Assembly: GCF_947648125.1 (NCBI RefSeq)
Contig: NZ_CANSMR010000015.1
Coordinates: forward strand, 124,001-188,000
Reading direction: 5' to 3'
Origin: an uncultured Bradyrhizobium sp.
Lineage (GTDB): Bacteria; Pseudomonadota; Alphaproteobacteria; Rhizobiales; Xanthobacteraceae
Length of the DNA stretch: 64,000 nucleotides
The position numbers and the translations under genes were made by a program. Under the pieces are notes generated by a model. That model had not been told where the DNA came from. It made no database searches and saw nothing but the letters and a program-made list of their open reading frames with translations. Position 1 is the first letter of the stretch, and each line of letters starts with the position of its first letter. Shown here piece after piece: positions 48,341 through 52,118 of this stretch.

Positions 48341-48568
48341 AATCGAGGCCTTTCAGGTGCTGCTGCGGTCGGTTGGGTCGCAGCCTAGGCCGGCTGGCCT
48401 CCGCGCCGCAGCGGAGCGCCTCCCGGCCGGTGCCGGGAAAATTTCACGACCGTGGTCCGCCCCCAAAGGCGGCGCTTCTCGATGCTTCCGTTCTGCCGTT
48501 TAATGGGCATGACGGCCCTGCCCGCAACCACGCGCCCAAGGTCGTCTGCAGCCTCTGAGGATACGCCG

Positions 48569-49990
48569 ATGTGGAATTGGTCCGGAAGCGATCTGAAGCT
48601 GCGGTTGACATTGCGTGTGGCGGCCGTGTCGATGCTCTGCTTTGCAGCGATCTCCGGCTACTTCCTGATCGAGGCCGACCGTTCAGTGCGCGCCAGGATC
48701 GCTGCCGTTGCCGATGTCGCCGCCAGGACGCTGGAGTTGCAGCAGAGCAAGATCCAGTGGCTGAACAATCCACGCTCCGATTTCCCCGATCTCGACAGCG
48801 TTGCCGCCTCGGTCATGGCGCCCGGCCTGTGCCTCGCGTTTCGCAACAATAACGGCGAGATCAGCCAGCGCTTCTGCGGCGGCACGCAGACCGATACGGC
48901 CGCGCCGCCGCAGGCTTTCGCGGCGCTCTATCGCCGCCTGTTCGATCCCGGCCGGGAGACTGTGCGCCCTGTGATTGCGCGCGGCCAGGCGATCGGCGAG
49001 GCCGTGGTCTGGGTCGATCCGGCGGTGCTGACGACCGAGGCCTGGCACGACGCCGGCCGGCTGATGGCGGTGCTCATGATCGCGCTGCCGCTGCTCTGCG
49101 CCCTGGTCTATGCGGCGCTGTCGCGTGCGCTGCGTCCGACGCGGCTGATCCGCGACGGGCTCGAGCGGATCGCTGCAGGCGACCTCGCCGCGCGCCTGCC
49201 GCCGTTCGATCTCGCCGAATTGTCGGCGATCGGCGACGTCTTCAATCAGCTCGCCGAGCGCCTCGCTACTGCGCTTGCCGACCGCAACGCGCTGACGCAG
49301 AAACTGATCGTGGTGCAGGACGAGGAACGCCGACATCTGGCGCGCGAGCTGCATGACGAGTTCGGGCAATCGCTGGCCGCGATCCGCGCGCTGGCCGCCT
49401 CGGCGCGCCTCACCGCGGCGCAAGATTGCCCGCCTTTGCTCGCCGAATGCGACGGCATCGCACGGACCGCGACCGACATGATGGAGACGTTGCGCGGCGC
49501 CCTCTTCAGGTTGCGGCCGCCCGATGTCGACGAACTCGGACTCGCCGCCAGTTTGGAGGGCCTGGTCGCCGGCTGGAACGGCCGCAGCCGGGGGCAGCCG
49601 CGGTTCGAGATCGCCATATCGGGATCGTTCGAACGCATCCCCGCCTCCACCGGCGCCAATCTCTATCGCATCGTGCAGGAGGCGCTCACCAACGCAGCCA
49701 AGCACGCCGGCGCCACGCGCGTCATGCTGCGGCTTGAGATGCGCGAGGCGGCTTCGACCGGCGGCGACAGCGAAATCGTGCTCGCGATCGACGATGATGG
49801 CAGGCCCGGCGATCCCCAGGGCGATCCTCAAGTGAAGTCCGGCATGGGCCTGCTCGGCATGCGCGAGCGGGTCGCCGCGCTCGGCGGGCAGCTGAGCTTC
49901 GAGGCGGGGCAGTCCAGCGGCTCATCGCTCCGCGTCAGTGTTCCCGCCGCGGCCGGCCGAGAGGCCGCATTTGTGGAACGCGCGGCATGA
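48569..49990 (+). CDS. NarL-type sensor histidine kinase (HisKA_3)
   Basis: A 473-residue membrane kinase: TM1 about 14-34, periplasmic domain of about 120 residues with a Cys pair (APGLCLAF...SQRFCGGTQ), TM2 near 165-190, HAMP (RALRPTRLIRDGLERIAAGDLAARL), HisKA_3 dimerisation domain with H262 (HLARELHDEFGQSLAAI) and a HATPase domain (NLYRIVQEALTNAAKHAGA). ATG 48569 follows GAGGAT. The two Cys could form a redox-sensitive disulfide; this is a guess. Its stop overlaps the regulator start by 4 bases. Confidence 0.9.
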   Translation: MWNWSGSDLKLRLTLRVAAVSMLCFAAISGYFLIEADRSVRARIAAVADVAARTLELQQSKIQWLNNPRSDFPDLDSVAASVMAPGLCLAFRNNNGEISQRFCGGTQTDTAAPPQAFAALYRRLFDPGRETVRPVIARGQAIGEAVVWVDPAVLTTEAWHDAGRLMAVLMIALPLLCALVYAALSRALRPTRLIRDGLERIAAGDLAARLPPFDLAELSAIGDVFNQLAERLATALADRNALTQKLIVVQDEERRHLARELHDEFGQSLAAIRALAASARLTAAQDCPPLLAECDGIARTATDMMETLRGALFRLRPPDVDELGLAASLEGLVAGWNGRSRGQPRFEIAISGSFERIPASTGANLYRIVQEALTNAAKHAGATRVMLRLEMREAASTGGDSEIVLAIDDDGRPGDPQGDPQVKSGMGLLGMRERVAALGGQLSFEAGQSSGSSLRVSVPAAAGREAAFVERAA

Positions 49991-50649
49991 GCAATACGGC
50001 GCGAACCATCATGCTGGTCGACGACCACGCCGTCGTTCGGGAAGGCTACCGGGCGATGCTGCAGAAGCAGCCGGGCCTCGCCGTCGTGGCCGAGGCCTCC
50101 GACGGCGTCGAGGCCTACCGCCTTTACAAGGAGACCGGGCCCGACCTCGTCATCATGGACCTGTCGATGCCCGGCATCGGCGGCATCGAGGCCATCCGGC
50201 GCCTCAGGCAGTGGGACAAGCGCGCAAAGATCCTGGTGTTCACCATGCACCAGAACGCGGCGTTTGCCGTGCAAGCGATCCGCGCCGGCGCGAGCGGCTA
50301 TGTCACCAAGACCAGCCCGCCGGAGACGCTGGTGCATGCCGTGATGGATGCGCTGTCCGGCAAGATCGCGATCAGTCCGGATATCGACCACGAACTCGCG
50401 CTCAGCCACCTCGCCGGCGAGCGCGCAGCCGCCGACCTCCTGACTGCGCGGGAATTCGAGGTGCTGCGCATGCTGCTCGCGGAGAAGACCACCGACGAGA
50501 TCGCCGAGACGCTGCACCTCAGCCCCAAGACGGTCGCGAACTTGCATTCCCTGATCAAGGACAAGCTCGGCGTTGGCACGGACATCGAGTTGGTCCGCCT
50601 CGCGCTGCGGCAGGGCATCCTCACGCAGATCGATCTGGGCGAACGGTGA
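49987..50649 (+). CDS. NarL/FixJ-family response regulator
   Basis: A 220-residue regulator: receiver with D58 (VIMDLSMPGIGG), acidic pair D12-D13, Thr in FTMHQ and Lys in YVTKTSPPE; then a LuxR-type HTH (LTAREFEVLRMLLAEKTTDEIAETLHLSPKTVANLHSLIKDKL). Overlaps the kinase gene through ATGA. Its target genes are not known; the divergent DUF2380-like gene at 47405-48340 is a candidate because of position. A weak 5-bp hairpin follows at 50690-50702. Confidence 0.92.
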   Translation: MSNTARTIMLVDDHAVVREGYRAMLQKQPGLAVVAEASDGVEAYRLYKETGPDLVIMDLSMPGIGGIEAIRRLRQWDKRAKILVFTMHQNAAFAVQAIRAGASGYVTKTSPPETLVHAVMDALSGKIAISPDIDHELALSHLAGERAAADLLTAREFEVLRMLLAEKTTDEIAETLHLSPKTVANLHSLIKDKLGVGTDIELVRLALRQGILTQIDLGER

Positions 50650-50706
50650 GCCCGCATCGCCGAACGACTGAGGCTGCGCCACGACCGTTCCCGCCTTGCG
50701 GGCAGG

Positions 50707-50735
50707 TTGACGAGACCGGACAGACAATCCAGAAT
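50707..50735 (+). promoter_or_regulatory. Promoter of the threonine leader / thrS2 transcript
   Basis: TTGACG at 50707-50712 and CAGAAT at 50730-50735 are separated by 17 bases. A start 7 bases after the -10 element falls on 50742, the A of the leader ATG, so the leader peptide would be translated from a leaderless mRNA. No Shine-Dalgarno sequence is visible before that ATG, in agreement. Confidence 0.65.
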
Positions 50736-50741
50736 AGCAAC

Positions 50742-50819
50742 ATGCGCAACATCTGTTCCATGTCTTTGACCACCGCGACGACCAGCCTTGGCGGGTCGTC
50801 TCCTGGTCGCATGCGGTAA
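50742..50819 (+). CDS. Threonine-rich leader peptide (25 aa)
   Basis: ATG 50742 to TAA 50817-50819 encodes MRNICSMSLTTATTSLGGSS followed by PGRMR. Codons 10, 11, 13 and 14 are Thr (ACC, ACC, ACG, ACC at 50769-50774 and 50778-50783). The position, 96 bases ahead of a ThrRS-type gene and just before mutually exclusive hairpins, is that of a classical attenuation leader: slow decoding of Thr codons when charged tRNA-Thr is scarce would keep the terminator open. The product itself probably has no other role, though some rhizobial leader peptides act in trans. Confidence 0.75.
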   Translation: MRNICSMSLTTATTSLGGSSPGRMR

Positions 50820-50869
50820 CAGACTGCACAACCAGACAAGGCCCCGCCGGCGACGGACGGGGCTTTTTT
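50777..50869 (+). promoter_or_regulatory. Threonine-responsive transcription attenuator
   Basis: Three competing pairings can be drawn. 1:2 pairs GACGACC (50777-50783, over Thr codons 13-14) with GGTCGTC (50794-50800). 2:3 (antiterminator) pairs GGCGGG (50790-50795) with CCCGCC (50843-50848), extended by two G-U pairs. 3:4 (terminator) pairs GCCCCG (50841-50846) with CGGGGC (50858-50863), then six T. A ribosome stalled on the Thr codons would mask segment 1, free segment 2 and prevent the terminator. Free energies were not computed. Confidence 0.75.
50841..50869 (+). terminator. Intrinsic terminator of the thrS2 attenuator
   Basis: GCCCCG (50841-50846) pairs with CGGGGC (50858-50863); the inner CCG/CGG can extend the stem past one bulged A. 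Six T follow at 50864-50869. It lies between the leader stop and the ribosome site of the ThrRS-like gene, so it would cut transcription before that gene. Confidence 0.85.
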
Positions 50870-50915
50870 CATGCGCAAAACTCGTCCGCGCTGCTTCCAA
50901 TCAGGAGAGCATGCT

Positions 50916-52118
50916 ATGGACGATCTCGATCACAGAAGCCTCGGAACGCGTCTCGATCTTTGGCACATCCAGGAGGATGCGCCAGGGATGGTGTTCTGGC
51001 ATCCGCGTGGCAACACGCTTTATCGTGTCCTGGAGGACTACATCCGCCGCAAAATGCGCCGGTTGGGCTATGCAGAGGTGCGAACGCCCCAGCTGCTGCC
51101 CCGCGAGGTTTGGATTCAAAGCGGCCATTGGGAGAAATTCGGCGCGCACATGTTCGGCTTTGCCGACGGCGAGCGCGCAATGGCACTCAAGCCGATGTCC
51201 TGTCCCTGCCACGTCCAGATCTTCAACAAGCGCCTGCGCTCCTGGCGCGACCTGCCGCTGCGCTACGCCGAGTTCGGCATCTGCCACCGCGATGAGCCGT
51301 CAGGCTCCCTGCACGGGCTGATGCGCACGCGCGGCTTCGAGCAGGACGACGCCCATGTGTTCTGCCGCGAGCAGGACGTGCCCAATGAAGTCGCCCGCTT
51401 CGTTGCGCTGCTGTCGGAAGTCTATGCCGAGTTCGGCTTCCCGGCGCCTGAGGTGTCGCTCTCCACCCGGCCGGCTGCGCGCGCAGGTTCAGACGAATTA
51501 TGGGATTGGGCGGAAACGACCCTTGCCGCGGCCGCGCGCCCATGCGGCCTGTCGTACACGATCCAGCCCGGCGAAGGCGCCTTCTACGGGCCCAAGCTGG
51601 AGTTTGCGCTGCGCGATCGGCTGGGCCGATCCTGGCAATGCGGAACGGTTCAGCTCGACAGCGTTCTGCCGGGCTGTCTCGACGCGTCGTATGTCGGACC
51701 GGACGGCAATCGCGCGATCCCGGTAATGATCCACCATGCAGTGTTCGGTTCGATCGGTCGCTTCATCGCGATGCTGCTTGAACATCACGCCGGCGCGCTG
51801 CCGTTCTGGCTGTCGCCCGACCAGGTTGCGGTCGCGCCGATCTCGCGTGATCATTACGATTACGCGGTCAAGGTTCTCGATGCACTCGAAGCTCAAGGCA
51901 TCAGAGGCGTTCTGTTCGCCGGCGCCGACACGCTGTCGCGACGGATCGTTGCCGCGCATGAGGCGAGTATTCCTGTGGTGGCCGTCGTCGGGCAGCGTGA
52001 AGCGCAACAGGGCACCGTGAGCCTCCGCGAGCGCGTCGGGGCCGTTTCTGTTTTGCCGTTGGCTGACGCGGTCCGGGCGCTTCGACGGCGTGCTCGTCCG
52101 GGCCAGAACGCCGAGTGA
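50916..52118 (+). CDS. Short threonyl-tRNA synthetase lacking TGS and editing domains
   Basis: A 400-residue class II synthetase; bacterial ThrRS is usually about 640. It starts directly at the catalytic domain (DHRSLGTRLDLWHIQEDAPGMVFWHPRG), so the TGS and N2 editing domains are absent. The core keeps the zinc ligands C96 (KPMSCPCH), H147 (DDAHVF) and H273 (PVMIHHAV), motif 2 (EFGICHRDEPSGSLHGLMR) and a C-terminal anticodon-binding domain ending VVGQREAQQGTVSLRER. ATG 50916 has AGGAG 8 bases upstream. Expected activity: Thr-tRNA formation without serine proofreading. It is preceded by a threonine attenuator and is probably a second copy beside a full-length thrS elsewhere. Confidence 0.88.
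   Translation: MDDLDHRSLGTRLDLWHIQEDAPGMVFWHPRGNTLYRVLEDYIRRKMRRLGYAEVRTPQLLPREVWIQSGHWEKFGAHMFGFADGERAMALKPMSCPCHVQIFNKRLRSWRDLPLRYAEFGICHRDEPSGSLHGLMRTRGFEQDDAHVFCREQDVPNEVARFVALLSEVYAEFGFPAPEVSLSTRPAARAGSDELWDWAETTLAAAARPCGLSYTIQPGEGAFYGPKLEFALRDRLGRSWQCGTVQLDSVLPGCLDASYVGPDGNRAIPVMIHHAVFGSIGRFIAMLLEHHAGALPFWLSPDQVAVAPISRDHYDYAVKVLDALEAQGIRGVLFAGADTLSRRIVAAHEASIPVVAVVGQREAQQGTVSLRERVGAVSVLPLADAVRALRRRARPGQNAE

Follow-up and report, generated by a model that had tools for sequence, protein, structure and literature searches.

The region at 50707-50915 is very probably a Thr-tRNA-sensing, ribosome-mediated transcription attenuator of an auxiliary, editing-less threonyl-tRNA synthetase (ThrRS2, encoded by thrS2). 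It lies in what we call the window, the whole 64,000-nt stretch of DNA analyzed here (uncultured Bradyrhizobium sp., GCF_947648125.1, contig NZ_CANSMR010000015.1, positions 124,001-188,000 of the forward strand), and the assignment is based on its sequence, its conservation, base pairing, and a computed shift in folding. The initial annotation had read this region as a Thr-sensing transcription attenuator, and the conservation of the Thr codons, the conservation of the pairing, and the computed folding shift now support that reading. The accompanying suggestion that the regulatory system might be undescribed did not hold, since the kind is on record in an attenuated auxiliary TrpRS gene, in ThrRS antitermination in Bacillus subtilis, and in a leader of Streptomyces lividans. 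The system also goes beyond what was first seen, with a probable leaderless mRNA, a probable Shine-Dalgarno layer outside Bradyrhizobium, and probable sister leaders elsewhere.

Anatomy of the thrS2 leader region

The features of the region are listed in Table 1. A leader of 25 codons with Thr codons 10, 11, 13, and 14, a 7-bp hairpin over these codons, a competing 6-bp antiterminator, and a terminator followed by six T had been described before, and in the sequence each was found exactly where it had been placed, with every coordinate of the leader exact. Segment 1 (GACGACC) and the 3′ arm of the Thr-codon hairpin (GGTCGTC) are perfectly complementary over 7 bp, and the antiterminator arm GGCGGG is complementary to CCCGCC, with a T-G wobble as a seventh pair. 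As determined with a promoter scan, TTGACG-17-CAGAAT was the sole promoter-like site listed within 50400-51200. The leader (129 nt) folds at -56.3 kcal/mol (z, -4.2) and the terminator part at -22.2 (z, -4.2), and in both cases 0/200 shuffles were as low. The 23-letter terminator word has one occurrence in the 8.57-Mb genome at ≤2 mismatches, compared to 0 for the reversed control. A simple terminator scan did not list the window terminator, the stem of which contains a bulge, and a tRNA scan of the 64-kb window returned none. Directly 5′ of the leader, on the same strand, are genes for a histidine kinase and a LuxR-type response regulator (48452-50649).

Table 1. Features of the thrS2 leader region, with positions in the window
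Feature	Position	Strand	Basis or remark
-35 box TTGACG, predicted leader promoter	50707-50712	+	Promoter scan; TTGAC at matching place in 53/54 ThrRS2 loci
-10 box CAGAAT, 17-nt spacer	50730-50735	+	Promoter scan; ends 6 nt 5′ of leader ATG
Leader ORF, 25 codons, MRNICSMSLTTATTSLGGSSPGRMR	50742-50819 (stop, 50817-50819)	+	Thr-rich leader at 54/54 ThrRS2 loci
Thr codons 10, 11, 13, 14 (putative sensor)	50769-50783	+	Conserved
Segment 1 of switch	50777-50783	+	Overlaps Thr codons
3′ arm of Thr-codon hairpin (1:2 helix)	50794-50800	+	Partner, 50777-50783; compensatory changes in alignment A4
Segment 2, antiterminator arm GGCGGG	50790-50795	+	Partner, 50843-50848
Intrinsic terminator stem (segments 3 and 4)	50841-50863	+	Folding, alignment; single genome occurrence
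Terminator T tract, six T	50864-50869	+	Sequence
Segment 5, CTCGTCCG	50881-50888	+	Could form 4:5 helix with terminator 3′ arm 50854-50861; putative role
thrS2 Shine-Dalgarno AGGAG	50903-50907	+	Sequence
thrS2, 400-aa threonyl-tRNA synthetase	50916-52118	+	Catalytic and anticodon-binding domains; without TGS or editing domain

The Thr-rich leader and its probable leaderless start

We compared the window with its relatives, 54 distinct ThrRS2 loci being retained after removal of eight duplicates (L090-L093 and L125-L128). The initial annotation had named Thr codons and pairing at orthologous loci as checks, and the Thr codons are kept: the upstream ORF has at least 3 Thr in 8 residues at 54/54 loci, at least 4 at 53/54, and at least 5 at 42/54. 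The lowest count, 3 Thr in 8, belongs to L013; the window has four Thr codons. Examples of such leaders are MNKLRSAALTTTATAYGGSPAGCAR (L004, same genus), MSALFVTTTTTTTTTANGGPGGGCTS (L096, Burkholderia-type family), and VSFVITTTTTGTTTRFGGRGAVRVTW (L156, Myxococcota sample). For the control, full-length thrS genes, the first ATG or GTG in the open frame served as the start (2/140 genes were dropped because of too little upstream sequence), and at least 5 Thr in 8 were found in 0/138 and 4 in 4/138. Full-length thrS genes in five ThrRS2-carrying genomes, including that of the window, had 1-2 Thr in 8 at best. When the ThrRS2 upstream regions were shuffled (540 shuffles), 2.8% reached 4 Thr in 8, and the share for at least 5 was 0.0. 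By themselves, the four Thr of the window are weak evidence, and the weight is carried by conservation.

A TTGAC -35 sequence together with a leader start codon in frame and 4-10 nt past the -10 box was recognized at 53/54 loci by a promoter search that gave a bonus to TTGAC; at the exception, L014, there was no recognized promoter at the right place. Because the start codon stands 4-10 nt past the -10 box, the leader mRNA is probably leaderless, and the 5′ end of the window transcript probably lies at the leader AUG or close to it.

Pairing and computed folding of the switch

Pairing was analyzed in an alignment of 17 alpha and beta leaders (A4) and was kept, with some compensatory changes. 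In the 1:2 helix, 78.7% of the cells were paired and covariation was 0.138 compared to 0.074 in shuffled alignments (0/500 as high), while both-side changes occurred in 2 pairs against a shuffle mean of 2.3 and were thus not above shuffles. The antiterminator was 92.2% paired, compared to 33-63% when slid; this percentage was equalled by 88/500 shuffles because the antiterminator hardly varies. The terminator was 95.6% paired, a level reached by 0/500 shuffles, and one basal pair was GC in 10 leaders, AU in 5, and GU in 2. Directly past the inner stem, an 8-nt stretch with at least four T was present at 22/22 proteobacterial loci examined.

Folding was computed with segment 4 not yet made, for 53 loci; L011, at which the terminator pattern was unmatched, was left out of the folding and Shine-Dalgarno tests. 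In the window, a stalled ribosome lifted the probability of the 2:3 helix from 0.01 to 1.00. The mean rose from 0.06 to 0.89 at 11 Bradyrhizobium-group loci (L014 included), from 0.14 to 0.97 at 11 other proteobacterial loci, and from 0.20 to 0.56 at 31 Myxococcota loci, all stalled values being the best over several Thr codons. Without a stall, 2:3 was already at least 0.65 at 7/53 loci (L017, L024, L095, L134, L136, L148, and L160). It stayed at 0.00 despite the stall at five Myxococcota loci (L145, L147, L149, L152, and L158), perhaps due to a misplaced segment 2, and reached merely 0.17-0.36 at 11 other Myxococcota loci. In these computations, then, a stall shifts mutually exclusive antiterminator and terminator structures, as expected of an attenuator, and not every relative switches. 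When the whole terminator was present, the equilibrium fold of the stalled window had 0.80 terminator and 0.16 antiterminator; since the terminator keeps 0.80 in this fold, the switch needs co-transcriptional order. Classic attenuators likewise depend on co-transcriptional order.

We infer the transcription start, stalling, termination, induction, and purpose of ThrRS2 as follows. RNA polymerase would begin at or beside the leader AUG, and a ribosome would load on the leaderless end and read the Thr-rich leader. With ample Thr-tRNA, the ribosome would pass, the 1:2 hairpin and then the 3:4 terminator would form, and transcription would halt near 50869. With Thr-tRNA in short supply, either from starvation or from a housekeeping ThrRS that is failing or inhibited, the ribosome would stall on the Thr codons and hide segment 1; segment 2 would then capture segment 3 upon its emergence, no terminator would form, and thrS2 would be made. 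The product would restore charging, closing a negative feedback loop that switches on a backup synthetase.

ThrRS2 lacks editing and TGS domains

The conserved start of thrS2 is at 50916, and at ThrRS2 loci the open frame 5′ of the ThrRS2 match extends merely 1-120 codons. ThrRS2 passes the cut-off of TIGR00418 (bacterial ThrRS) with 447.5 bits compared to 383.65, over positions 172-558 of the 565-position profile. Pfam identified PF00587 and PF03129 and neither a TGS nor a tRNA_SAD (editing) domain, and ThrRS2 falls outside the full-length ThrRS. The target had been annotated as a second ThrRS gene, and this was borne out by a full-length ThrRS, 48% identical to ThrRS2, in the same genome. 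The equivalents of Cys334, His385, and His511, which we take to be the Zn ligands, and of Tyr462, Arg363, and Gln484 are invariant in 10/10 aligned ThrRS2 (numbering of Escherichia coli ThrRS, via an offset to 1qf6). Because these six positions are invariant, ThrRS2 should still charge tRNA(Thr), as judged from its sequence. The missing editing domain suggests that it would release Ser-tRNA(Thr), given the role of that domain as presented in the text on editing in PMC4787780.

We also considered an inhibitor-resistance enzyme of the ObaO type. In the account of ObaO in PMC11252418, this obafluorin-resistant ThrRS has Ser at the Gly463 position and Met at Leu489. The candidate was rejected: the equivalents of Gly463 and Leu489 are still Gly and Leu in 10/10 aligned ThrRS2, and the known obafluorin and borrelidin resistance substitutions are absent from the same 10 proteins. 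ThrRS2 could still be resistant by means other than the known residues.

Distribution and phylogeny of ThrRS2

The window protein is matched at E ≤ 1e-140 in 7/296 genomes of its own family, its own genome counted. Profile A3 leaves a gap between ThrRS2 (≥622 bits) and full-length ThrRS (<600), and by this gap ThrRS2 is present in 9/398 genomes of the phylum sample (own genome counted), 8/150 genomes of the Burkholderia-type family (three of them also within the phylum sample), and 64/193 genomes of the phylum of L016 (Citreicoccus, Myxococcota). A quick tree (LG+G4) was made of 99 rows, comprising 41 of the 53 ThrRS2 prepared, 35 of 100 full-length and 23 of 26 viral proteins, with L150 dropped. 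The 41 ThrRS2 rows formed one side of a branch (SH-aLRT, 99), which divides into a Pseudomonadota part and a Myxococcota part, and the full-length L002, L129, L130, and L132, from ThrRS2-carrying genomes, stand apart from ThrRS2. L150, from the Myxococcota sample, has one in-frame TAG within its ThrRS2 match.

Among 12 loci, neighbor genes were common only to the window and the closely related L010, to L016 and L024, and, for one ORF pair, to L011 and L017; the histidine kinase and response regulator neighbors recur only in L010. Since the flanking genes otherwise differ at these 12 loci, the leader and thrS2 form a shared unit. In plasmid records with ThrRS2 (Caballeronia and B. arboris), the stretch is without annotation and the leader is present. 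At L265 and L266, eight-Thr leaders have no recognizable ThrRS2 after them; the next ORF of L266 begins ThrRS2-like and continues transporter-like, possibly by decay of thrS2.

Sister leaders and viral loci

A covariance model (R1) built from 14 alpha/beta leaders gave matches at E ≤ 0.01 in 44/289 genomes of the class and in 59/150 of the Burkholderia-type family. ThrRS2 was found at 15 of the 40 loci L240-L279, which were taken from the best R1 matches, and other target genes were named by Pfam on nine proteins. The window's own genome has one such match, L280 (G000:C2:53797-53904; R1, 41.7 bits), with a Thr/Lys-rich leader, MITATKRTTKTTKPSGASGGVRA, a terminator with a T tract and then an aspartate-semialdehyde dehydrogenase gene (asd), and with TTGACG upstream. 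The asd leader was also found at L258 (Pfam) and, by eye, at L245, L247, L249, L259, and L281. At L270 and L289, hosted by a Burkholderia-type genome and a genome of the window's class, the Thr-rich leader is followed by a full-length ThrRS gene, TGS and editing domains included. Further matches precede a DHDPS-family gene (L290, Pfam) and an ABM gene (L278, Pfam); an aminoglycoside 3-N-acetyltransferase-like gene (L248, Pfam) lies at a greater distance from its match and is a doubtful target. Because the matches precede varied genes, R1 represents a wider leader class, of which weak matches need not be attenuators.

Two other groups of matches were observed. In the Burkholderia-type family, Thr-rich leaders stand before an isochorismatase-like hydrolase gene at L271, L272, L273, and L292 (Pfam for L292, the rest by eye). 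At L276, L279, L286, L287, L293, and L294, R1 matches precede DUF2917 genes (Pfam for L294, the rest by eye), and these leaders share a similar A-I-rich sequence, several with N-H-P, instead of the codon run.

On a 437-kb IMG/VR contig (L226:1813-1985; L239 is the same place), a short ThrRS follows the leader MHIVKNTTTTTTTQIEAGLVRYCR and a CCCAGC/GCTGGG terminator with seven T, with which a GCTGGG arm of the leader can pair. Judged from these letters, L226 is apparently an independent Thr attenuator. Such a clear Thr attenuator was seen in 1/26 short viral ThrRS, and the L226 ThrRS, when its relatives were searched for, matched nothing but itself. The viral L163 and L166 were not counted as attenuators: their short ThrRS is preceded by a longer small ORF of ∼60 aa with a Thr-rich C terminus, and no clear terminator was seen by eye.

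Translational control and other explanations

A conserved C(T/C)CCG-type segment 5, located 3′ of the terminator, is complementary both to the terminator 3′ arm and to the thrS2 Shine-Dalgarno sequence. One alternative is a mainly translational switch, in which the leader ribosome would direct segment 5 either to segment 4 or to the thrS2 Shine-Dalgarno sequence, masking the latter; such a switch would hold for Myxococcota and supplement transcription attenuation in Burkholderiaceae, and the chances of its being correct are about even. The T tract is missing at 31/31 Myxococcota loci, with ≤2 T in any 8 nt directly past the inner stem, and by eye it was not seen past the outer stem either. The Shine-Dalgarno helix beats shuffles (p ≤ 0.05) at 24/53 loci, yet at 0/11 of the Bradyrhizobium group, and 18/42 loci outside that group miss p 0.05; for the window itself, where the helix has p 0.52, a Shine-Dalgarno layer was rejected. 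With fixed anchors, the sixth pair of this helix was TA in 23, AT in 5, and TC in 2 of 30 distinct arm pairs, and 0/2000 shuffles were as high, although the anchor pattern limits one side of the informative pair to T or A, and rows that are related do not count as independent. This test covered 41/54 loci (12 Bradyrhizobium/Azospirillaceae loci and L097 were left out), and the AT rows come from two separate branches on the Myxococcota side of the tree. For 24 Myxococcota leaders, RNAalifold gave a consensus with 2:3 plus 4:5 (1/32 pairs covarying), and one pair of the opposite, terminator-like hairpin in Myxococcota leaders was CG in 7, TA in 11, TT in 3, CA in 1, and a gap in 2. In A4, the 4:5 helix was 93.3% paired compared to 35-61% when slid, but it had no both-side changes, and 500/500 shuffles reached its pairing. 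Against the translational switch also stands the small mean Shine-Dalgarno release between a ribosome at the stop and the best stall, from 0.05 to 0.20 in the beta group and from 0.15 to 0.29 in Myxococcota, in equilibrium folds. Most simply read, control is translational in Myxococcota, exerted at both layers in Burkholderiaceae, and exclusively transcriptional in the window.

Could the hairpin instead be a mere terminator of the upstream two-component operon, with accidental Thr codons? The response-regulator gene, which ends at 50649, is indeed the immediate upstream neighbor on this strand, and 4 Thr in 8 occur in shuffled ORFs at the rate given above; however, among the 12 loci compared, the leader and terminator travel with thrS2 despite unrelated upstream genes, and a conserved promoter stands between, so we regard this explanation as extremely improbable. 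Nearly as improbable is a leader ORF product that would be a small protein acting in trans. A role in trans is reported for the Sinorhizobium meliloti trp leader peptide in the account given by PMC7298713, but by eye the peptide here varies between groups except for the Thr run and the residues encoded by the GGCGGG arm. A T-box or other Rfam element was rejected after Rfam searches. The window had 0 matches at gathering score, the best in a permissive search having 20.2 bits (E 0.043) where the gathering score is 50. For six relatives, the searches returned three matches and no more, all to miRNA models, below threshold, and outside the leader of L098, and nine sister loci gave none at E 0.05.

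Returning to attenuation by a leader ribosome, a broader proposal, on which we are evenly divided, is that of a “charging emergency” cassette. A leaderless Thr-codon leader would drive a five-segment relay (1:2, 2:3, 3:4, 4:5, and 5:Shine-Dalgarno) able to shut an editing-less backup ThrRS at transcription, translation, or both, with the terminator in Bradyrhizobium, both layers in Burkholderiaceae, and Shine-Dalgarno masking alone in Myxococcota; the viral L226 would have evolved the same Thr-leader logic with a different sequence. The attenuator of the window would open regulated loss of proofreading to a direct test, with a non-editing ThrRS on exactly when Thr-tRNA is scarce. The related loci offer one attenuator in seemingly transcriptional and translational forms, and with the covariance model, sister leaders of asd, full-length thrS, and other genes come to light in alpha- and betaproteobacteria; Rfam gave no match at the nine such loci searched.

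Comparison with known systems

The kind of attenuator is already known, as ribosome-mediated attenuation of synthetase genes. ThrRS antitermination in B. subtilis, where the second gene is named thrZ, is a T-box system, and a T-box reads tRNA directly. In contrast to this reading of tRNA itself, the window uses a translated leader and matches no Rfam family at gathering score. A title listed in PMC4787780 (Putzer 1992) places two ThrRS genes of B. subtilis under transcriptional antitermination, so that, as far as the title goes, antitermination switches a second ThrRS gene there as in the window. Two further titles in the same list concern an auxiliary, antibiotic-resistant TrpRS gene under ribosome-mediated attenuation (Vecchione and Sello 2010) and name Streptomyces coelicolor and indolmycin for the auxiliary TrpRS. 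To the extent of these titles, that gene resembles thrS2 as an auxiliary synthetase gene under ribosome-mediated transcription attenuation; it differs in concerning Trp, Actinobacteria, and a resistance enzyme, whereas ThrRS2 keeps the Gly463 and Leu489 equivalents.

The passages on thrL of S. lividans TK24 in PMC8079986 describe a two-Thr-codon, leaderless leader ahead of thrS, for which an attenuator was proposed from RNA-seq. It resembles the window in that a ThrRS gene is preceded by a leader peptide with Thr codons and a leaderless start (probable in the window), and the Myxococcota loci in its single hairpin without a U-rich stretch. Unlike the window, it is actinobacterial and has only two Thr codons, and these passages show no terminator/antiterminator and make no mention of a second or truncated ThrRS. 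In Anabaena, as covered in the T2 account of PMC4787780, T2 (thrS2) is likewise an inducible second ThrRS with impaired editing; it is under the zinc-responsive repressor Zur and keeps its N2 domain, in both of which it differs from the window's system.

Among alphaproteobacteria, the S. meliloti trpLE(G) transcript starts at the leader AUG and is leaderless (trp passages of PMC7298713 and PMC10117765), like the probable window transcript, with Trp codons before trpE instead. Caulobacter crescentus trpS is preceded by a leader ORF in the description of PMC4117421, and thus, as in the window, a leader peptide stands before a synthetase gene, here a different one. The section on S. meliloti SEP5 in PMC10117765 reports a translated Thr/Lys-rich ORF before an “aspartate dehydrogenase” gene and proposes a leader peptide; it resembles the window as a Thr-rich translated ORF in a rhizobium, differs in its target gene, and may correspond to the asd leaders L280 and L258.

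The ThrRS2-linked form with long Thr runs, its spread over Pseudomonadota and Myxococcota, and the probable translational variant were not found in searches of a library of open-licence papers, although an earlier mention is possible; “thrS” and “threonyl” are absent from the main text of PMC1262725 and PMC4833913. Compared to the systems above, the new elements are the length of the Thr runs, a clear switch, a target without editing, and the distribution.
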